From contig RZYB01000003.1 in NCBI GenBank assembly GCA_009930495.1, forward strand, positions 1 through 51,349: 51,349 nt of DNA, given 5' to 3'. This DNA is from Deltaproteobacteria bacterium. Its GTDB lineage: Bacteria; Desulfobacterota; Desulfovibrionia; Desulfovibrionales; Desulfomicrobiaceae. The notes beneath the pieces were generated by a model. That model ran no database searches, was not told the origin of the DNA, and was given only the letters and a program-made list of their open reading frames with translations. The stretch's first letter is position 1, and each line of letters begins with the position of its first letter. This document shows, piece after piece, positions 6,044 to 40,974 of the stretch. The position numbers and the translations under genes were made by a program.

Positions 6044-6802
6044 ATGGCGCGCACTCCCTCACCCCGATCATCCTCTCCGCGACGCGTCGCGCGCCGCTCC
6101 TTGGCCACGCGCGCCGTGACTTGGTCCCGCCGCGCGGCCCGAATGGCCGCGTATGTGGTGCTGGCCACGGCGATACTGATCCTGGCCCTGCGCTGGGCCC
6201 CACCCCCAACCAGCATGTTCATGCTGATCCGCCACGCGGAGCGACTCCTGGCCACCAAGCCCGGCCCCCCGATTCTCTACACCTGGACCGCAAGGACGGA
6301 CATCCCGACGCACGTGGCCCTGGCCGTGGTCGCGGCCGAAGACCAAAATTTTCCCCGCCATTTCGGTTTCGATCTGACCGCCATCGCCAGGGCCGTGAAG
6401 TACAACGAAACCCACGATCGCATGCGGGGGGCCAGCACCATCACCCAGCAAACCGTCAAGAACCTCTTCCTGTGGCCCGGCCGGAGCCTGGTCCGCAAGG
6501 GATTCGAAGCGGTCCTGACCCTGGCCGTCGAGGTCGTCTGGCCCAAGGCACGGATTCTGGAAATCTATCTCAATGTCGCGGAATTCGGAGACGGAACCTA
6601 TGGCGTGGGCGCGGCGGCCAAGCGGTATTTTGGCAAAACGCCACAAAAACTGAGTCGACGCGAGGCGGCCGTCCTGGCCTCGGTCCTGCCCAGCCCCAGA
6701 CGTCTGCACGCAAAACAGCCGTCATCCTATGTGAACAGCCGGGCCAAATGGGTCCAAACCCAAATGCGCCAACTGGGCCAAAAACACATCACCTGGCCCT
6801 AA
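6044..6802 (+). CDS. mtgA: Monofunctional peptidoglycan transglycosylase
   Basis: A 252-residue GT51-family glycosyltransferase that would polymerise lipid II into glycan strands at the periplasmic face of the inner membrane. A basic N-terminus of about 35 residues precedes one membrane anchor (about 35-50). GT51 motifs follow in order: AAEDQNFPRHFGFD with the catalytic Glu, RGASTITQQTVKNLFLW, EIYLNVAEFG and GVGAAAKRYFGK. The size matches MtgA rather than a bifunctional penicillin-binding protein; there is no transpeptidase domain. The 130 bp before it hold no further gene. The unusually Arg/Ser-rich N-terminus means the true start could lie a little downstream. rarD follows after 11 bp and is probably co-transcribed. 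Confidence 0.9.
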   Translation: MARTPSPRSSSPRRVARRSLATRAVTWSRRAARMAAYVVLATAILILALRWAPPPTSMFMLIRHAERLLATKPGPPILYTWTARTDIPTHVALAVVAAEDQNFPRHFGFDLTAIARAVKYNETHDRMRGASTITQQTVKNLFLWPGRSLVRKGFEAVLTLAVEVVWPKARILEIYLNVAEFGDGTYGVGAAAKRYFGKTPQKLSRREAAVLASVLPSPRRLHAKQPSSYVNSRAKWVQTQMRQLGQKHITWP

Positions 6803-6813
6803 GGAATCCATCT

Positions 6814-7692
6814 ATGAACACAGGTATTCTTGCCGCCATCGGCGCCTACGCCAGCTGGGGACTGCTGCCCGTTTACTGGAAACTGCTGGCGCACGTCCCC
6901 ACGCTGCAACTTCTTGGACACCGCATTGTCTGGTCCTTTGTCGTGCTGGCGCTCTTCCTGGCCGTGAAAAAAAGGCTCCGGGCCCTGCGCCACAGCCTGT
7001 CCCCAGCCGTTTGGAGAATCTACATCGCGGCCAGTCTGCTTATCGGCGTGAATTGGTGCGTCTATGTCTGGAGCGTCAACGCCGGCTACATTGTCGAAAC
7101 CAGCCTCGGCTACTTCATCAATCCGCTGCTGTCCGTGCTTCTGGGGATGGTGTTTCTCCGCGAACGACTGCGGCGACTGCAATGGATACCGCTGATGCTG
7201 GCCGCGTCGGGCGTGCTCTATCTCACCTGGTCCCATGGGAAGCCGCCATGGATCGCGCTGTGCCTGGCCGTGACCTTCAGCCTGTACGGTCTGGTCAAGA
7301 AAAAAGCGCCACTGGGCGCTTTTGAAGGGTTAACCCTGGAAACCGGGCTTTTATTGCCGCCGGCCCTGACGTGGCTGGGGCTGTGCGCCGCGCGTGGCAC
7401 GGGTTCTTTTACGCAGGCGGGACTGGAAAGCGATCTGCTCCTCGTGGGCGCGGGACTGGTCACCACCGGCCCCCTGGTCCTGTTCGCCTCGGCGGCCCAG
7501 CGCATCCCGCTGAACATGATCGGCATTCTGCAATACATCGCGCCAAGCATCCAATTTCTGATCGGTGTCCTGGTCTACGGCGAAGCGTTCACGCACACCC
7601 AGATGATTGGTTTTGGCGCGGTCTGGACCGCCATTGTCCTGTTTTTACTGGAACGTTGGTGGGCCGGCCGAAATTCGAGACTGGTGGTCTGA
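6814..7692 (+). CDS. rarD: RarD-type EamA family permease
   Basis: A 292-residue polytopic inner-membrane protein with about ten hydrophobic segments in two EamA-like halves. The opening ILAAIGAYASWGLLPVYWK, the following HRIVWS, and NWCVYVWSVNAG in the first half are typical of RarD. The substrate is not established for this family; chloramphenicol sensitivity gave the name. The start at 6814 follows AAGGAATC at a suitable spacing and gives the usual family length; the longer open frame upstream overlaps mtgA and is not coding. The gene is convergent with the aminotransferase gene, with stop codons abutting at 7692/7693 and no room for a separate terminator. Confidence 0.88.
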   Translation: MNTGILAAIGAYASWGLLPVYWKLLAHVPTLQLLGHRIVWSFVVLALFLAVKKRLRALRHSLSPAVWRIYIAASLLIGVNWCVYVWSVNAGYIVETSLGYFINPLLSVLLGMVFLRERLRRLQWIPLMLAASGVLYLTWSHGKPPWIALCLAVTFSLYGLVKKKAPLGAFEGLTLETGLLLPPALTWLGLCAARGTGSFTQAGLESDLLLVGAGLVTTGPLVLFASAAQRIPLNMIGILQYIAPSIQFLIGVLVYGEAFTHTQMIGFGAVWTAIVLFLLERWWAGRNSRLVV

Positions 7693-32174: not shown

Positions 32175-32206
32175 TTTTGGGCCGCCCCCAACCTACGGAG
32201 CATGGC

Positions 32207-33421
32207 ATGGGTTTCTTCCACGATACATTCACGGCGCGCCCTGCCCTGCCCGAGGAGGTCAAACGCCTCGGCTGGGTCAGTTTCTTCACCGATGTGGCCT
32301 CGGAAATGATCTATCCGGTGGTGCCGCTCTTCCTGACCTCGGTGCTTGGCGCGCCGGTGGCCATCCTGGGGACCATCGAGGGTCTGGCCGAGGTCATCGT
32401 CAGTCTGATGAAAGGCCTTTCCGGCTGGCATTGCGACAAACTGGGGCGCCGCGTACCGTATATCCGGTGGGGCTATGGCCTCGGGGCCATGTCCAAACCG
32501 CTCATGGCCATGGCCTTTTCCTGGCCCACAATCCTGCTGGCCCGGGCCGTGGACCGCACCGGCAAAGGATTGCGCACCACGGCCCGGGACGCCCTCATCG
32601 CCGACGCCGTGGACGCATCCCAGGGCGGCCAGGCCTTCGGCTTCCACCGCATGATGGACACGGCCGGGGCCATGCTCGGCGTGCTTCTGGCCACGATCCT
32701 GCTGGCCCTGCTCCCCGGCCACTACCGGATTGTTTTCCTGGTCGCCACGCTGCCCGGACTGGCGGCGGTATGGCTGACCTTCCGGCTGAAGGAAGCCGCA
32801 CAGGCCCCGGCCTGCGCGCAATCCTCGACCCGCGACCTATTCACCGGCCAGGCCTGGGTCAGCCTGCCAAAAGCGTTCTGGATGACCCTGGCCCCGCTCC
32901 TCGTCTTCGCCTTCGCCAACTCCTCGGACACGTTCCTCATTCTGCGGGCCAAGAACCTGGGCCTCTCCGACACCCAGTCCATCATGGCCTACCTGCTCTT
33001 CAACCTTGTCTATGCCCTCAGCGCCTACCCGCTCGGCATCTTGAGCGACCGCGTGGGCCGCTGGCGAATGATCCTTTGCGGCTGGGCGTTGTATGGCTTC
33101 GTCTATCTGGGCGTGGCCTGGGCGGACATGAGCGACGTGTGGTGGCTTTTTGCCGTGTACGGCCTGTTCATGGGGCTGACCGACGGCGTCGACCGCGCCC
33201 TCATCCGCGACCAAATCCCCGAGGACCGCAAGGGCACGGCCATGGGCATCTTCCACATGGGAGTCGGGTTCATGGCCCTGGCCGGAAGCATCGCCGCCGG
33301 ATTGTGCTGGGATCTCATCGGACCTGGAGCGCCCTTCGTGCTCGACGGAGTGGCGGCGTTTCTGGCTGTTCTGGTCGCGGTGACGTTGCGCAAACACATC
33401 ACGGGCGAGGCGGAAAACTGA
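32207..33421 (+). CDS. MFS transporter
   Basis: A 404-residue polytopic inner-membrane protein with about 11-12 hydrophobic segments. The loop between helices 2 and 3 has GWHCDKLGRRVPYIRWGYG, and the following ARAVDRTGKGLRTTARDALIAD is a recurrent signature of one MFS subgroup. The substrate cannot be told from sequence. ACGGAG at 32195-32200 precedes ATG 32207; an in-frame ATG at 32177 would put the start close to a terminator. It has its own transcription unit between the IS remnant and the convergent envelope cluster. Confidence 0.88.
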   Translation: MGFFHDTFTARPALPEEVKRLGWVSFFTDVASEMIYPVVPLFLTSVLGAPVAILGTIEGLAEVIVSLMKGLSGWHCDKLGRRVPYIRWGYGLGAMSKPLMAMAFSWPTILLARAVDRTGKGLRTTARDALIADAVDASQGGQAFGFHRMMDTAGAMLGVLLATILLALLPGHYRIVFLVATLPGLAAVWLTFRLKEAAQAPACAQSSTRDLFTGQAWVSLPKAFWMTLAPLLVFAFANSSDTFLILRAKNLGLSDTQSIMAYLLFNLVYALSAYPLGILSDRVGRWRMILCGWALYGFVYLGVAWADMSDVWWLFAVYGLFMGLTDGVDRALIRDQIPEDRKGTAMGIFHMGVGFMALAGSIAAGLCWDLIGPGAPFVLDGVAAFLAVLVAVTLRKHITGEAEN

Positions 33422-33691: not shown

Positions 33692-34264
33692 TCAGTGTTT
33701 TTGGGAATTCATGAAGCGCCTGAAACTTTTATCCATGGCGGCGCTCTTTTTCCAGATAAAAAATGGAGCATGGCCACGCCAAAGGGAAAGTTCCAGTTCC
33801 GCACGATGCGGCGCGGCATGTTCCCCCGCGATCATCCACGCGGCCGCGACGAGGCCCGTGCGGTCCGCGCCGCCATCGCAGTGGATCAGGATTGGCTTGG
33901 GAGCGAGCCGGACGAGTTCAATGATCTCCGCGAGATCGAAAGGCGTCACGAACTTCCTGGCGGACAATTTTCGATCATAGTGTTCAACACCAGCAGCTCC
34001 GCACGCTTCGATTTCCTCCGCATACCACCTGGAGGATGATCGACCTCGCAAATTCAATACGCTGCGGATGGCGTAGGTGCGCAGAACATGGTCAAGCCTG
34101 GTCGGGGGCAATTGTCCGGATCGGTAGACCGCGCCCGGAGTGAGCACCGCGAAATTGCCGTTTATCCAGATATTCAGGAACACGGCAAAGGCGATCACCA
34201 GCATCACGACGCCAAGATAGCCGAGCAAAAATTTCAAACCGGCGGTGAAGAAAAATGAGCGCAT
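33692..34264 (-). CDS. Membrane-anchored tyrosine/dual-specificity phosphatase-like protein
   Basis: A 190-residue protein with an N-terminal membrane anchor (about residues 9-32) followed by a Cys-based phosphatase domain. VYRSGQL is typical of the family start, and the P-loop is HCDGGADRTG (HC-X5-R), with catalytic Cys and Arg intact. The general-acid region is not obvious. Related enzymes act on phosphotyrosine, phosphoinositides or phosphatidylglycerophosphate; here the membrane anchor and the envelope genes upstream suggest a lipid or envelope-sugar phosphate (inference). It is the last gene of the minus-strand cluster, 53 bp after the metallophosphoesterase. The ribosome site is weak. 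Confidence 0.8.
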   Translation of the reverse strand: MRSFFFTAGLKFLLGYLGVVMLVIAFAVFLNIWINGNFAVLTPGAVYRSGQLPPTRLDHVLRTYAIRSVLNLRGRSSSRWYAEEIEACGAAGVEHYDRKLSARKFVTPFDLAEIIELVRLAPKPILIHCDGGADRTGLVAAAWMIAGEHAAPHRAELELSLWRGHAPFFIWKKSAAMDKSFRRFMNSQKH

Positions 34265-34317: not shown

Positions 34318-35184
34318 TCAGCTCCCGCCGGTTCGCTTCCTGAACAATCCAGCCACGGCCAGGGCCATGATCGCGTTGCCCACGGCAAAAAGCACGGGAT
34401 GCGCCAGCATCATCGGCCCAATGCGGACCACGGAATTCAACTCCAGCCAGTCGCCAAAATCGAACCGCGCCGCCACCGGCAGGATGCGCTCCGAGACCAT
34501 GTCCGACCCAACGGTCAGGGCCACGGCGTGGTGAAACTGCTTCCCCATCGATTCGTGCAGGTGCGCCCCGCCGCCACCGGTGACGAGATACTCCACCCCG
34601 CGCAGCCAAGTCTGGTTGTAGCCGTGAAAATCCGCAGCCACGGCGTAGTCAATATGCAGATCCTCGAAAATCCGCGTCAGTTCAGCCTCGTCGGTCGTGT
34701 GCCGTTCCTTGATGTCTGGCGAGACCCAGGGAGGAATGTGCATGAACACGAAACGCCTGCGATACTTTCCAAGGTCCTGGCCCGCCAGGGAGCGCAGATA
34801 ATCCAGGGACTCGCGGTTGGAAAAGCGCCTGTCGAGATGACTGATGAAGGCGAACAGACAATCGCCATGGACAAAGGAAAAATTGCGCGGCCCGTAGTCG
34901 CGCGCGAACGCGTCCAGGTCGTATTTTTTGGGATCGACATCATGATTGCCGGGCGTGAAAAAGACAGGACAGGTAAAGCCGTACTCCGGGCATTCCTGCC
35001 GGTAATAGGCGTGCCAGTCCGTGGACCCCGCATCGACCCAATCTCCGAGAATGACCACGAAATCCGGCTTGGCCGCGTTGATGTCCTCGGCCAGGGCCTC
35101 GAACGTCCCCTTGCTGCGGGGATCGCCGACCACGACGAAAGTGAATGGCGCTCCCGGATCGGAAGCGGGCAGCATCGTTCGCAC
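34318..35184 (-). CDS. Metallophosphoesterase domain, downstream part of an interrupted gene
   Basis: A calcineurin-like phosphoesterase of about 288 residues. Metal-binding motifs are complete: VVGDPRSKG in place of the usual D-x-H, GDWVD, GNHD, MHIPPW and ADFHGYNQ. A C-terminal hydrophobic helix (AHPVLFAVGNAIMALAVAG) suggests a second membrane anchor. GTG 35184 has no ribosome site and sits two codons after an in-frame TAG. The same frame upstream encodes a 50-residue membrane anchor that starts with normal coupling to the glycosyltransferase gene. The original protein was probably one 340-residue chain. Here it is either broken, read through, or reinitiated. Confidence 0.75.
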   Translation of the reverse strand: MRTMLPASDPGAPFTFVVVGDPRSKGTFEALAEDINAAKPDFVVILGDWVDAGSTDWHAYYRQECPEYGFTCPVFFTPGNHDVDPKKYDLDAFARDYGPRNFSFVHGDCLFAFISHLDRRFSNRESLDYLRSLAGQDLGKYRRRFVFMHIPPWVSPDIKERHTTDEAELTRIFEDLHIDYAVAADFHGYNQTWLRGVEYLVTGGGGAHLHESMGKQFHHAVALTVGSDMVSERILPVAARFDFGDWLELNSVVRIGPMMLAHPVLFAVGNAIMALAVAGLFRKRTGGS

Positions 35185-35187
35185 GTG

Positions 35188-35340
35188 CTAGAAATTGCCG
35201 AAATTCTCCGGCAGCACGCTTGATCGGGCCGCACTTGTGGCGACAACGGCGTAAACTTGCACGCCAAGAGCCAGCGCATACAACCCAACCATGCTCCACA
35301 ACAACCGCCGTCCGAGGGCGGCCCACAGGAAATGCTTCAT
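35188..35340 (-). pseudogene. N-terminal membrane-anchor part of the interrupted metallophosphoesterase gene
   Basis: Fifty codons, opening MKHFLWAALGRRLLWSMVGL with a hydrophobic helix at about residues 12-34, end in TAG at 35190-35188. The ATG at 35340 overlaps the stop of the glycosyltransferase gene as ATGA, the usual arrangement for a translationally coupled gene. The frame continues after the TAG with CAC GTG into the phosphoesterase domain, without a shift. The TAG most simply reflects one nonsense substitution of a sense codon. Confidence 0.7.
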
Positions 35341-36965
35341 TTCTTCTCTCCCCGATCCGCTGTCTCGCGCCGCAGCACGGTAAGATGGAGTGTCTTCCCG
35401 GAAAAATTGGACACGTCGAGCCGTTCGCATTCGACATACCCGCGCAACGCGCCCGGAATGACCGGAGGTTCCTCGCGGGACGCGAAGCAAACCCGCGCGG
35501 AGCCCTCCAGAGCGGAAAACGCTTCCAGACGCAGCGGTTTTCCGCCAAGCACCCAAAAATCCTGAAACTTGAGCGACGTGTCGCGCACCACGAGCGCGCC
35601 GGCGGTCAGGGCGCGGATCTTGGCCAGGGGAACGGACATGTCCCCGGCCGGAGGATGGACAAGGGCGGGCAACCCGAAAGTCAGTAGCCCCAGCAGTCGG
35701 AATTGAAATCCGAAAAGCAGACGCCAATCGCCCGCGCGGACCAGACGATACAGCAGCGCCGCGCCCAGCACGCCGGCCAGGAACACCCCGCCCAGGGTCG
35801 GAATGTCCAGGGTGAAGCGGTCGCGCAGCCACCACAACCCCACGGGCGCGGCAAGACAAACCAATCCGAAAACCGCGCCATTGACCCAAACCACGAAACG
35901 GCCCACGCGCCCGCCCGCGTCCGGATCACGCAGCAGGCCGGTCAGGTACACGCCCATGAGCTGGCACAAGGGAATCAGAACCGGCAGCAGGTAGCGGTCC
36001 TTCTTTTCCGGCACAAGCATGAGCAGGCCCACGCAGATCAAGGTCCACAGAGCCGGACGCCAATAGGGCAAAAACGGCTCGACCCGGCTCCGGGCGTGTC
36101 CGGGCCACAGCGCGGCGCAGGCCATGAGCGTCCAGACGCCGGTCATGAGCGGAAACTGGAGATAGAACCAGAACGGCTTGGTGTGTTCCACCATCCACGC
36201 GGCCTGTTCGACGGCCACCATGTCCGAGAACGCGCCCGGCATCACGACCCAGGCCGCCACCGGCCAGACCACGGACAACGCCAGGCCGAGGCCGAGCGCC
36301 AGCCCCAGATCCTTGAGGCGGAGCCGGATGCCCCGCCACCCGCCCGTGGCCAGCATGGCCACGATCCAGGGCGCAAGCAGCGCGTAAAAACTCACCGGTC
36401 CCTTGCTCAGGCCCGACAGCCCGAGGAGCACGCCCGCGACAACGGCCAGCCGCTTTCGGGGCGCGGGCGAGTCCGCGATAACGGCCAGAGCCCAGATCGC
36501 GGCCAGCATGAAGGCGTGGCAATAAATGTCCCAACTGTTGCGGCGGGCCATGAGCACGAACATGTAGCTTGTGGCCAGAAAAGCCGTGGCCCAGGCCGCA
36601 GCTTCCGTGCTCTTGGTCCAAAACCTGGTCAGGCCGAAAAGCGACGCGGCCAGGAGCAATCCAGCCAAGGCCGAGGGGATGCGATTCACGGCCAGATCCG
36701 TGTCCAGTCCGGCGTTGCCGCCCAGCATGGCCATGGCCGTGAGCCAGGTCGGCAAAGGCGGTTTAGCCAGACGTGGTTGGCCGAACATGGTCGGCAGGAA
36801 CCACTGGCCCGTGTCGATCATTTCGCGGGCCGTGATCAGATTGCGGGCCTCCATGATGTCCACGCCAAGCAGGTCGCGATGGGCAAAAATCCCAACGGCA
36901 AGCAGCAACAGAAGTCCGGACATGCCGCCAAGAGCCACGAACGAACGAAGCAAACGGTCAATCAT
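35337..36965 (-). CDS. ArnT-like GT-C family glycosyltransferase
   Basis: A 542-residue polytopic inner-membrane protein with about ten or more membrane segments. The first periplasmic loop has VDIMEARNLITAREM and FGQPRLAKPPLPTWLTAMA, matching the catalytic-loop pattern of ArnT/GT39/GT83 transferases that move a sugar from a polyprenyl-phosphate donor to lipid A or protein. A soluble C-terminal part of about 130 residues follows. The substrate is unknown; Ara4N is only one option. ATG 36965 with GGAGAG is preferred over an in-frame start at 37019 that would nearly touch the preceding gene. It overlaps the next gene by ATGA. Confidence 0.85.
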   Translation of the reverse strand: MIDRLLRSFVALGGMSGLLLLLAVGIFAHRDLLGVDIMEARNLITAREMIDTGQWFLPTMFGQPRLAKPPLPTWLTAMAMLGGNAGLDTDLAVNRIPSALAGLLLAASLFGLTRFWTKSTEAAAWATAFLATSYMFVLMARRNSWDIYCHAFMLAAIWALAVIADSPAPRKRLAVVAGVLLGLSGLSKGPVSFYALLAPWIVAMLATGGWRGIRLRLKDLGLALGLGLALSVVWPVAAWVVMPGAFSDMVAVEQAAWMVEHTKPFWFYLQFPLMTGVWTLMACAALWPGHARSRVEPFLPYWRPALWTLICVGLLMLVPEKKDRYLLPVLIPLCQLMGVYLTGLLRDPDAGGRVGRFVVWVNGAVFGLVCLAAPVGLWWLRDRFTLDIPTLGGVFLAGVLGAALLYRLVRAGDWRLLFGFQFRLLGLLTFGLPALVHPPAGDMSVPLAKIRALTAGALVVRDTSLKFQDFWVLGGKPLRLEAFSALEGSARVCFASREEPPVIPGALRGYVECERLDVSNFSGKTLHLTVLRRETADRGEKK

Positions 36966-37022
36966 GAACTCTCCACATGACGCGGGCATGATTGCGAAGA
37001 CATGTTCCACGACCGACACGCA

Positions 37023-38948
37023 TCATCGCGCACGCCCTGAGGGCCACCGCAACAACCCGTGCCGGAATCCGTGACTCGCACCCTGGTAATAGGCGATATC
37101 GCGCCGCACCAACGGGTCGGAGACACTGGCTGCGGACTCATCGCTCAGGCCCAGAGCGTCGTCGTGGCGGCGAAGGCCCCGCCTGGGGCTCAAAATCGCG
37201 AGACTTTGGCCGTCGAACAGCCCCAGATGCTGATAGTTGCCAATCAAGGCCCGGCCAGGGGCCGCGTCCTCGCGCAACACGTTGCGGCCAAAGAACGTCG
37301 ATTCATAATCCATGTTCAAAAGACCAAGCAGAGTCGGAGCCAAATCAATCTGGCTGGCCAGGATGTCCACGTCCCTGGCCGGGATCAGCCTGGGTGCGTA
37401 CACCAGGAGCGGAATATGGTATTTGGCCACGGGCAGATCGTCCTTGCCGGCGCTGTTGGCGTCATGGTCAGCCACGATGATGAAAATGGTCCGATCAAAC
37501 CAGGGCTTGGTCCGGGCCTGATCCAAAAAACGGCCCAGGGCGAAATCCGTGTATTTGACCGCGCCATCCCGGCCATACCCGGACGGGACATCAATACGGC
37601 CCTCGGGATACGTGAAAGGGCGGTGATTGGAGGTCGTCATCAGATGGAAAAAAAACGGCTTGCCCACGGCGGTGTCGACATCCGCCTGGCGCAAGGTTTG
37701 AGAATAAAGATCCTCGTCGCACATGCCCCAGGCATTCTTGAAAGAAATCTCCTCTTCGGGAACGCTGCTCTGATCGACAATGCGGTACCCGTTGCCACTG
37801 AAAAACGCGTTCATATTATCAAAATAACCACGTCCCCCGTACAAAAACGCACAGTCGTATCCCTTGGCCCCGAGTTGGCGGCCCAGGCTGGCGTAACCGC
37901 TTTCGCGACCCAGGCGTTTGACGATGGAACGCCCCGGTGTCGGCGGCAGGGACAGGGTGATGGCCTCCAGCGCGCGATCGGTGCGCGTGCCGGTGGCGTA
38001 CACGTTGGTGAAGAACAGACTCTCGGCCCGCAGCCGGTCCAGGTTGGGCGTCAGGCCGCAGGTATCCCCGAAGCTGCCCAGATACTTGGCGCTCAGGCTT
38101 TCCACCGTGACCAACACCACATTGAGGGGACTAAATTGTCCGGGATTGTCGATTGAACGACGAATATCCAGAGGGTCCACATTAAGGAACCGCGCGTTGG
38201 GTTCGCCCACTTCCCGGCGCAGCAGCTCGCCCAGCTCCCGCTCCGGCATTGTGGCGTAGAATTGCCCATAATCCAGCTCGTTGTTACGGAAGGCGGCGAA
38301 GAAACGAAACGGCCCGTTCCCGGCCAGCTCCCGTTGGGGGACATCGCCGCCGAGACCGCGCGGAAAATCCTGATCGATCCCGGCCGTGACCAAAAGCGCC
38401 AGGGCGGCGAGCCCAGCCAAAAACGGCCAGGGCCGCCGGACAGGTCCGGCATCCGGAACACGGTCGAGGGTCCGGTGCAGCAGGACGGCCCCGGCCATGG
38501 CCAAAAGCACGAACAGGGCCAGGAGCGGATAGACCGGGTAGGATTCCAGGATGTTGTTGACCACCTCGTGCGAATAGACCAGATAATCGACGGCGATAAA
38601 GTTGAATCGGCTGGAAAATTCATCCCAGAACAACCACTCCGCCGTGGCGGTGAAAAACATCACGAACAGCACCGCCGTGGTCAGAACGCGAAGCGCGACC
38701 TTTCGGCCGGCCCACAGGCGGCGCGGGGCGAGCATCAACAGCGCGGCCAGGAACGCGACCGCGTAGGTCAGAAAACCCAGGTCGAAAATCAGGCCGACGC
38801 CGAAGATGCGGAGCACGTCCAGAAGGCCGGGATCGATCTGGCCGAAATGGCCCACAAGCAAAGCACAACGGGTCAGGAAAAATGCGGCCAGCCAAACCAG
38901 GCCAAGGGCGGTCAGGTAACGGACCAGAACATGACGGAACAGGGACAT
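37023..38948 (-). CDS. LTA synthase/MdoB-type sulfatase-fold phosphotransferase
   Basis: A 641-residue inner-membrane protein: five N-terminal hydrophobic helices (to about residue 200) followed by a periplasmic alkaline-phosphatase-fold domain. The nucleophile Thr is in the YATGTRTDRALEA stretch; VLVTVESLSAKYLGS supplies the first metal ligand and IIVADHDANS the later ones. Relatives transfer glycerophosphate or phosphoethanolamine from phospholipids to envelope glycans or lipid A. In this Gram-negative context a periplasmic-glycan or LPS target is likely (inference). AAGGAGGAACC precedes the ATG. It is the first gene of the minus-strand cluster and diverges from a two-component system. Confidence 0.88.
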   Translation of the reverse strand: MSLFRHVLVRYLTALGLVWLAAFFLTRCALLVGHFGQIDPGLLDVLRIFGVGLIFDLGFLTYAVAFLAALLMLAPRRLWAGRKVALRVLTTAVLFVMFFTATAEWLFWDEFSSRFNFIAVDYLVYSHEVVNNILESYPVYPLLALFVLLAMAGAVLLHRTLDRVPDAGPVRRPWPFLAGLAALALLVTAGIDQDFPRGLGGDVPQRELAGNGPFRFFAAFRNNELDYGQFYATMPERELGELLRREVGEPNARFLNVDPLDIRRSIDNPGQFSPLNVVLVTVESLSAKYLGSFGDTCGLTPNLDRLRAESLFFTNVYATGTRTDRALEAITLSLPPTPGRSIVKRLGRESGYASLGRQLGAKGYDCAFLYGGRGYFDNMNAFFSGNGYRIVDQSSVPEEEISFKNAWGMCDEDLYSQTLRQADVDTAVGKPFFFHLMTTSNHRPFTYPEGRIDVPSGYGRDGAVKYTDFALGRFLDQARTKPWFDRTIFIIVADHDANSAGKDDLPVAKYHIPLLVYAPRLIPARDVDILASQIDLAPTLLGLLNMDYESTFFGRNVLREDAAPGRALIGNYQHLGLFDGQSLAILSPRRGLRRHDDALGLSDESAASVSDPLVRRDIAYYQGASHGFRHGLLRWPSGRAR

Positions 38949-39012
38949 GGGTTCCTCCTTGTGATGAGCCCCCGCTCTAGCCCTCGGTCCGTCAGCCCCG
39001 CGTCATGGGGAT

Positions 39013-39029
39013 GTGAAAATTTCGTGAAA
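39013..39029 (+). promoter_or_regulatory. GTGAAA direct repeat, candidate response-regulator operator
   Basis: GTGAAA occurs at 39013-39018 and again at 39024-39029, exactly 11 bp apart, in the 96-bp gap between the divergent sulfatase-type gene and the response regulator gene. OmpR-family regulators commonly bind direct repeats of one helical turn, so this may be an autoregulatory site acting in both directions (inference). No clear -10/-35 pair was found. Confidence 0.4.
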
Positions 39030-39044
39030 CGCCAAGGAGGCGCC

Positions 39045-39725
39045 GTGCGCATTCTGATCATCGAGGACAATCCGGACATCCTGGCCAACGTGGCCGACTA
39101 TCTGACCCTCAAGGGCCATGTCGTGGACTGCGCCCAGGACGGACTGAGCGGCCTGCACCTGGCCGTGACCGGAAGCCATGACCTCATCGTACTCGACGTC
39201 ATGCTGCCCAGCATCGACGGCTACCAGATCTGCAAACGACTGCGCGAGGACGCGGGCAGTGAGATCCCCATCATCATGCTCACGGCCCGCGACACCCTGG
39301 ACGACCGCTTGCACGGCCTGGACATCGGGGCCGACGACTATCTGGTCAAACCCTTCGCCCTGGCCGAGCTGCACGCCCGCATCCTGGCCGTGCTGCGGCG
39401 CGGCGGAGGGCACGCGCGCGGTCTGCGCGTCAGCGATCTGCACTACGACCTGGACACCCTGCGGGTCACACGGGGCGGCGCGTCCCTCAAGCTCAATCCC
39501 CTGGGCCTCAAATTGCTGGAAATCCTGATGCGCAAGAGTCCGGCCGTGGTCCGCCGCGAAACCCTGGAAGCCGAACTGTGGGGCGAAAACTGCCCGGACA
39601 GCGACAGCCTGCGCACCCACGTCCACCAGTTGCGCCAAGTCCTGGACAAACCCTTTGGCCATCCCCTGCTGCACACCGTGCACGGCATCGGATACCGTCT
39701 GGCCGAGGACGACGATGCTCGCTAA
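39045..39725 (+). CDS. OmpR-family response regulator
   Basis: A 226-residue two-domain regulator. The receiver has IIEDN, phospho-Asp in LIVLDVMLPSIDG and the Lys in LVKPFALAEL. The C-terminal winged helix (from about residue 130) ends SLRTHVHQLRQVLDKPFG and TVHGIGYRL, the recognition helix and wing of the OmpR class. The GTG start at 39045 is preceded by AAGGAGG. The stop overlaps the kinase start by 11 bp. Its likely targets include the divergent envelope-modification genes, as PmrA does in enterobacteria (inference). Confidence 0.92.
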   Translation: MRILIIEDNPDILANVADYLTLKGHVVDCAQDGLSGLHLAVTGSHDLIVLDVMLPSIDGYQICKRLREDAGSEIPIIMLTARDTLDDRLHGLDIGADDYLVKPFALAELHARILAVLRRGGGHARGLRVSDLHYDLDTLRVTRGGASLKLNPLGLKLLEILMRKSPAVVRRETLEAELWGENCPDSDSLRTHVHQLRQVLDKPFGHPLLHTVHGIGYRLAEDDDAR

Positions 39726-40974
39726 GCTGCCCCTGGCCCGCCGCATCGTCCTGGCCTTCGTACTCATGACCGCCCTGGTCAGCGGCCTCTTCTCCTGGGG
39801 CATCTACGGCACGGTGCTCTTCGTGGAGGAGCACTTGGTGTCCAAGGAACTGGAGGGAGAACTCGCCAGCGCGCTGGAGGACATGGCCGCCGGCCGCCCA
39901 CCGCGTCTCGATGCCCGGACCCGCCTCCTGTCCTCCGATTCCACGGACCATCCCATTCCTGACCGTTTCCGTGCACTGCCTGAAGGCTTCACCGAGATCG
40001 CCAACGAGCGCGAGGCGGTCTATGTTTTCCTGCGCGACGTGGGGGAAACCCGCCATGCCCTGATCCAGGAGCAAAGCGAGTTCGAGGCCCGCGAACATGT
40101 ATTGTTCAATGTGGCCCTGGCCGGATTCCTGCTGTGCGTGGCCGGATCGTGGGCGTTGGGTGAATTCATGGCCGCGCGGGTCATGGAGCCGGTCACGCGC
40201 CTGGCCCGCCGCGTACAGGGCGCGGACCGCCGCGCTCCCCTGGCTCCGGAATTCGCCGACGATGAAATCGGCCGCCTGGCCGCGACCTTCGACGCCGCCT
40301 TTGCCCAGCTCCGCCAGGCCCTGGACCGGGAACGCCTCTTCACCAGCGACGTCAGCCACGAACTGCGCACCCCGCTCATGGTCATCGCCTCGTCCTGCGA
40401 ACTGCTGCGGGAATCCTCCCTCACGCCGGACCAGCAAACCCAGATTCGCCGCATCGAAAGCGCGACCGGCGACATGCGCACCCTGATCCAGGCCTTCCTG
40501 CTCCTGGCCCGATCCCAAGTACGCGAAAACGCGGCCGAGGAACGGATCACCCTGCTCCAGGCCGCGCGCGACCAGGCCCTGCATTGGAAAACGCGCTTCC
40601 GGGACAAGGGCCTGGAGTTTTCCATCATCGAGGAAGAGACCGACACGGGCCGCTACAACCAGACCTTCCTGAACACGGTCCTTTCCAACCTGCTCCGCAA
40701 CGCCTGGCACTACACGGACCGTGGCCAGGTCCGCTTGGTGCTGGGACGCGACGGATTCCGCGTCGAGGACAGCGGTCCCGGCATCCCGGACGAAGACCGG
40801 GAGCGGATCTTCGACCCCTTCGTGCGCGGTTCCCACACACGGGGCGAAGGTCTGGGCCTGGGCCTGTCCCTGGTGCAACGCATCTGCGCCCACCAAGGCT
40901 GGACCATCACGGCCACGGCCATGACGCCGCGCGGAAGCTGCTTCAAAATCGCCTTGCAACAACGCCACCCCTGA
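39715..40974 (+). CDS. Two-component sensor histidine kinase
   Basis: A 419-residue membrane kinase. Two membrane helices (about 10-32 and 142-160) flank a periplasmic loop of about 105 residues rich in acidic residues. HAMP follows, then HisKA with SDVSHELRTPLMVI, N box NTVLSNLLRNAWHY, G1 VEDSGPGIPD and G2 GEGLGLGLSLV. All catalytic motifs are intact. The ATG at 39715 is within the end of the regulator gene, so the pair is translationally coupled. The sensed signal is unknown; the layout resembles PmrB/QseC-type kinases. Confidence 0.92.
   Translation: MLAKLPLARRIVLAFVLMTALVSGLFSWGIYGTVLFVEEHLVSKELEGELASALEDMAAGRPPRLDARTRLLSSDSTDHPIPDRFRALPEGFTEIANEREAVYVFLRDVGETRHALIQEQSEFEAREHVLFNVALAGFLLCVAGSWALGEFMAARVMEPVTRLARRVQGADRRAPLAPEFADDEIGRLAATFDAAFAQLRQALDRERLFTSDVSHELRTPLMVIASSCELLRESSLTPDQQTQIRRIESATGDMRTLIQAFLLLARSQVRENAAEERITLLQAARDQALHWKTRFRDKGLEFSIIEEETDTGRYNQTFLNTVLSNLLRNAWHYTDRGQVRLVLGRDGFRVEDSGPGIPDEDRERIFDPFVRGSHTRGEGLGLGLSLVQRICAHQGWTITATAMTPRGSCFKIALQQRHP

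Follow-up and report, generated by a model that had tools for sequence, protein, structure and literature searches.

The window analysed here is one whole contig (C3) of 51,349 nucleotides, which belongs to a 3.2 Mb draft assembly of a Desulfomicrobium-like bacterium with 493 contigs and a completeness of 97.55%. On its minus strand, a short membrane-anchor frame is separated from a metallophosphoesterase frame by a single in-frame TAG, raising the question of whether this codon is a lesion, an error in the assembled bases, a codon that is translated through, or the boundary between two chains. The results below indicate that, very probably, either the codon arose very recently by nonsense mutation or a single base is wrong through sequencing or assembly; the gene concerned is dispensable.

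Layout of the Interrupted Gene and Its Metal Motifs

The 5′ part of the interrupted gene (35188..35340, minus strand) spans 50 codons and encodes a single membrane segment (about residues 17–35). Its start codon, ATG at 35340-35338, overlaps the TGA (35339-35337) of a PMT_2-family gene as ATGA, and it ends in the TAG at 35190-35188, which was placed as codon 51 by direct sequence and by codon alignment with relatives. The base after the TAG is C, and the same frame continues without a frameshift for 289 codons to a TGA at 34320-34318. This 3′ part (34318..35187, minus strand) contains the PF00149 domain and a C-terminal hydrophobic membrane segment located by hydropathy at about residues 315–333 of the read-through frame. 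The coupled ATGA start, the 50-codon anchor frame, the position of the TAG and the unshifted continuation described in the first-pass annotation were all borne out by the sequence.

The PF00149 profile matched 174 residues of the 3′ part with an E-value of 4.7e-16 and 60.2 bits, against a curated cut-off of 21.5; no relative with a solved structure was found by sequence search. The GD(P/T)R, GDW(V)(D/N) and GNHD motifs and the histidine of HIPP are present, but the first claim that all metal motifs are kept proved slightly too strong, as the GHxH position (read-through residues about 248–254) reads ADFH. This reading is found in all eight sequences, namely the window copy and seven relatives, and because the variant is common to all of them, ADFH is best taken as a family trait, a conserved variant of the metal site, rather than as decay.

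Continuous Frame in Relatives and Constraint after the TAG

A search among 41 genomes revealed that the gene occurs mainly in the genus, where near-full-length matches were obtained from 8 of 16 genomes, its own included. In the seven relatives from the genus Desulfomicrobium it forms one uninterrupted frame from the anchor through the C-terminal membrane segment with no internal stop, and both halves of the window copy taken together share 56–68% identity with these relatives over 304–333 residues. The relatives conserve the N-terminal anchor as well as an NFGNF motif directly ahead of the TAG, so the anchor part and the phosphoesterase part belong to a single protein. Since each of seven relatives has one continuous frame to which both halves align, the TAG-split arrangement is, judged from the alignments, not a product of chance.

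The comparison of codon 51 with relatives that had been proposed at first yielded a sense codon in all seven and a TAG in none. The codons are GAA, GAG, GCG, GAG, GAG, GAA and ATA, encoding Glu in five relatives, Ala in one and Ile in one, and the five Glu codons lie one or two bases from TAG, GAG being one base away. The position is thus variable rather than a functional residue needing a special amino acid.

Downstream of the TAG, the 289 codons contain no further stop and no frameshift. The window copy departs from an otherwise invariant residue at 9 of 127 alignment columns, within the range of 0–16 for the intact relatives, in agreement with the earlier statement that the catalytic domain shows no further decay. 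The post-TAG part has a pN of 0.20 vs a pS of 0.73 to the nearest relative (G012), and the GC3 is 0.76 downstream of the TAG vs 0.79 in the PMT_2 gene. As pN is far below pS, any loss of constraint would be recent; lineage-specific dN/dS does not yield a date for the change, given the saturation of synonymous sites between species. No decay signature extends beyond this one codon, which speaks against the favoured reading in that inactivation of the gene is a prediction.

Readthrough, Recoding and a Two-Chain Split

Readthrough of the TAG could be dedicated or leaky. Some sulfate-reducing deltaproteobacteria use pyrrolysine, and the codon here is UAG, so that a residue could in principle be inserted by pyrrolysine or by an amber suppressor tRNA; PMC13188914 cites a paper whose title reports pyrrolysine use in a worm symbiont. 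We consider such recoding extremely improbable at this locus. A profile search of the genus genomes, in which Methanosarcina acetivorans was detected as positive control, found no PylS above the cut-off of 178, only weak matches of 20–22 bits, and no PylS N-terminal domain was found in the own genome (draft, 97.55% complete). None of the 47 tRNA matches in the own genome (by ARAGORN or alignment, within what tRNA models detect) has a CTA anticodon, the single weak match reading TCG, and the search for pylS or suppressor tRNA genes that the first-pass annotation had suggested therefore came out negative. The Glu, Ala or Ile found at codon 51 in relatives also stands against recoding. Stop usage was judged from the window's own genes and from 81 ABC-transporter domain matches in other parts of the genome. 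TAG is a normal stop in the window, ending fabG (17284), plsX (15453), yceD (14190), ribH (24229), leuS (27199) and lon (31856), all of which would be read through too; the frame beyond the fabG TAG stays open through acpP, so efficient suppression would fuse the fabG and acpP products. None of the 81 ABC-transporter matches contains an in-frame stop, which argues against general recoding and against a highly error-prone assembly, while a single wrong base here is still compatible with it. The missing PylS, the missing CTA tRNA and the TAG ends of ordinary genes together contradict pyrrolysine or dedicated suppression, and the open literature yielded no report of Desulfomicrobium using pyrrolysine. 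Leaky readthrough, whereby the TAG is kept and near-cognate tRNAs read it at a low level to give a little full-length enzyme, is very unlikely. The downstream part shows no further decay, a C follows the stop, and in-frame stops under purifying selection are reported as widespread in bacteria (PMC7918605). However, the same survey finds such stops short-lived and expects a substantial share of raw cases to be artefacts, an undecayed downstream part would be expected just as much after a recent mutation, and the stop occurs in one genome only, being conserved in none of the seven relatives. The form in which the TAG would act as an expression-lowering leaky stop, yielding mainly the 50-residue anchor peptide with a trace of full envelope phosphoesterase, is highly unlikely. 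Of the readthrough option raised at first, the dedicated part is thus contradicted, and the leaky part is left without pointers in its favour.

In a true split, the membrane part would be a 50-residue peptide of its own and translation of the phosphoesterase would restart, by termination-reinitiation at GTG 35184 or at the next ATG, about 12 bases past the TAG (about 35175). The order TAG CAC GTG does place a start codon three bases past the stop, but neither GTG 35184 nor the next ATG is preceded by a Shine-Dalgarno match; the anti-SD duplex energies are -1.7 kcal/mol before the GTG and about 0 at the ATG, vs -8.1 kcal/mol at ATG 35340 and -11.4 kcal/mol at the start of the sulfatase-family gene at the head of the run. 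These weak energies support the earlier observation that the phosphoesterase part has no ribosome site of its own. The GTG aligns with a Val of the relatives (GTG/GTA/GTT), and because they have the same residue it is an inherited codon rather than an evolved start. Restarting would cost the catalytic chain its N-terminal membrane segment, so that it would probably remain cytoplasmic. With two separate genes in none of the seven relatives and no ribosome site, the proposed split into two chains is contradicted, and we regard it as highly improbable. Neighbouring pairs within the window that lie in the same frame and are separated by one stop were also checked as further interrupted genes; fabG/acpP (17284), yceD/plsX (14190), ribH/leuS (24229) and rplM/rpsI (43479) were all rejected, being ordinary adjacent genes of distinct families.

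A separate observation concerns the weak tRNA-like match, on the minus strand of L067 at 89-159 (G000:C94:89-159), which scored 30.3 bits, has TCG at the anticodon position and is ARAGORN-negative; it is possibly a tRNA remnant.

Operon Context and Gene Loss

The phosphoesterase gene is the last of its operon. The run begins with a membrane sulfatase-family (PF00884) phosphoglycerol/phosphoethanolamine-transferase-like protein (37023..38948, minus strand), followed by the PMT_2-family membrane glycosyltransferase (weakly ArnT-like; 35337..37019, minus strand), which lies upstream of the interrupted gene and overlaps it. Divergent from these on the plus strand are an OmpR-type response regulator (38988..39725) and its partner sensor histidine kinase (39655..40974), both with approximate starts. 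This order is kept in relatives, with the two-component system on the plus strand facing the sulfatase-like transferase, the PMT_2 gene and the phosphoesterase on the minus strand. Among named models, the best matches are PmrAB-like, ArnT-like and phosphoglycerol/LTA-transferase-like, and because all of them fall far below the curated cut-offs, envelope or lipid A modification is a guessed class for this genus-conserved operon rather than an assigned function. The literature was also searched for operons that combine a phosphoethanolamine transferase with ArnT and a metallophosphoesterase, and nothing was found.

In one genome of the genus (G015), a deletion joins codon ~70 of the PMT_2 gene, out of frame, to codon ~201 of the phosphoesterase gene, which represents an independent loss of this pair. 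The fused remnant lies at L073 about 6592-7140 (G015:C1 near 2226591-2227171), and the sulfatase gene there is intact. Another genome (G006) has the sulfatase and PMT_2 genes with no phosphoesterase match. As the gene is a mere remnant in G015, is absent from G006 and is near-full-length in just half of the genus genomes, it is, from its distribution, dispensable, and this dispensability is consistent with a tolerated nonsense mutation. The window would add one case of loss of a distal operon gene in Desulfomicrobium, beside the deletion in G015 and the absence in G006.

A dual-specificity/tyrosine-phosphatase-like gene (33692-34264, minus strand) follows just downstream of the interrupted gene and is matched by nothing in the other 15 genomes of the genus. 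It is situated between the phosphoesterase gene and the gene at 32177-33421, the latter being close to the phosphoesterase in the relative L015. Because the flanking genes lie close together there and no match exists in the genus, the phosphatase-like gene looks like a recent insertion.

A Probable Recent Nonsense Mutation or Base Error

The earlier suggestion of a recent nonsense mutation or a sequencing error is therefore the favoured one, given the sense codon in all seven relatives and the single lesion. Both forms fit all the evidence; we lean somewhat towards a real mutation over a base error, as a matter of judgement and not of measurement. The most simple change at codon 51 would be GAG to TAG, with GAG as the presumed ancestral codon. 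If the TAG is real, translation would end once the 50-residue anchor has been made, leaving little or no catalytic domain. In the read-through protein, the N-terminal membrane segment should place the phosphoesterase domain outside the cytoplasm; the loss of function and the membrane topology are both predictions. An annotator should accordingly flag the gene as interrupted, by possible pseudogene formation or base error, and neither as two genes nor as recoded.

Comparison with Known Systems

The interrupted gene resembles the pyrrolysine-containing UAG genes in its in-frame UAG only, and differs from them in having no synthetase, no CTA tRNA and no conservation of the site. With the known calcineurin-like metallophosphoesterases (PF00149), the window protein has the GD, GDW(V)(D/N) and GNHD motifs in common, but it differs in carrying ADFH for GHxH and membrane segments at both ends. 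With the nonsense-interrupted bacterial genes surveyed in PMC7918605 (recent pseudogenes or polymorphic in-frame stops), it shares a single in-frame stop in one genome, an intact downstream frame and a sense codon in relatives. According to that survey, in-frame stops are common in bacterial genes but persist only briefly, for about as long as population polymorphisms do; a substantial share of the raw cases is expected to be artefactual, and some are perhaps read through. The interrupted phosphoesterase fits this class of in-frame stops, which is ordinary and already known.
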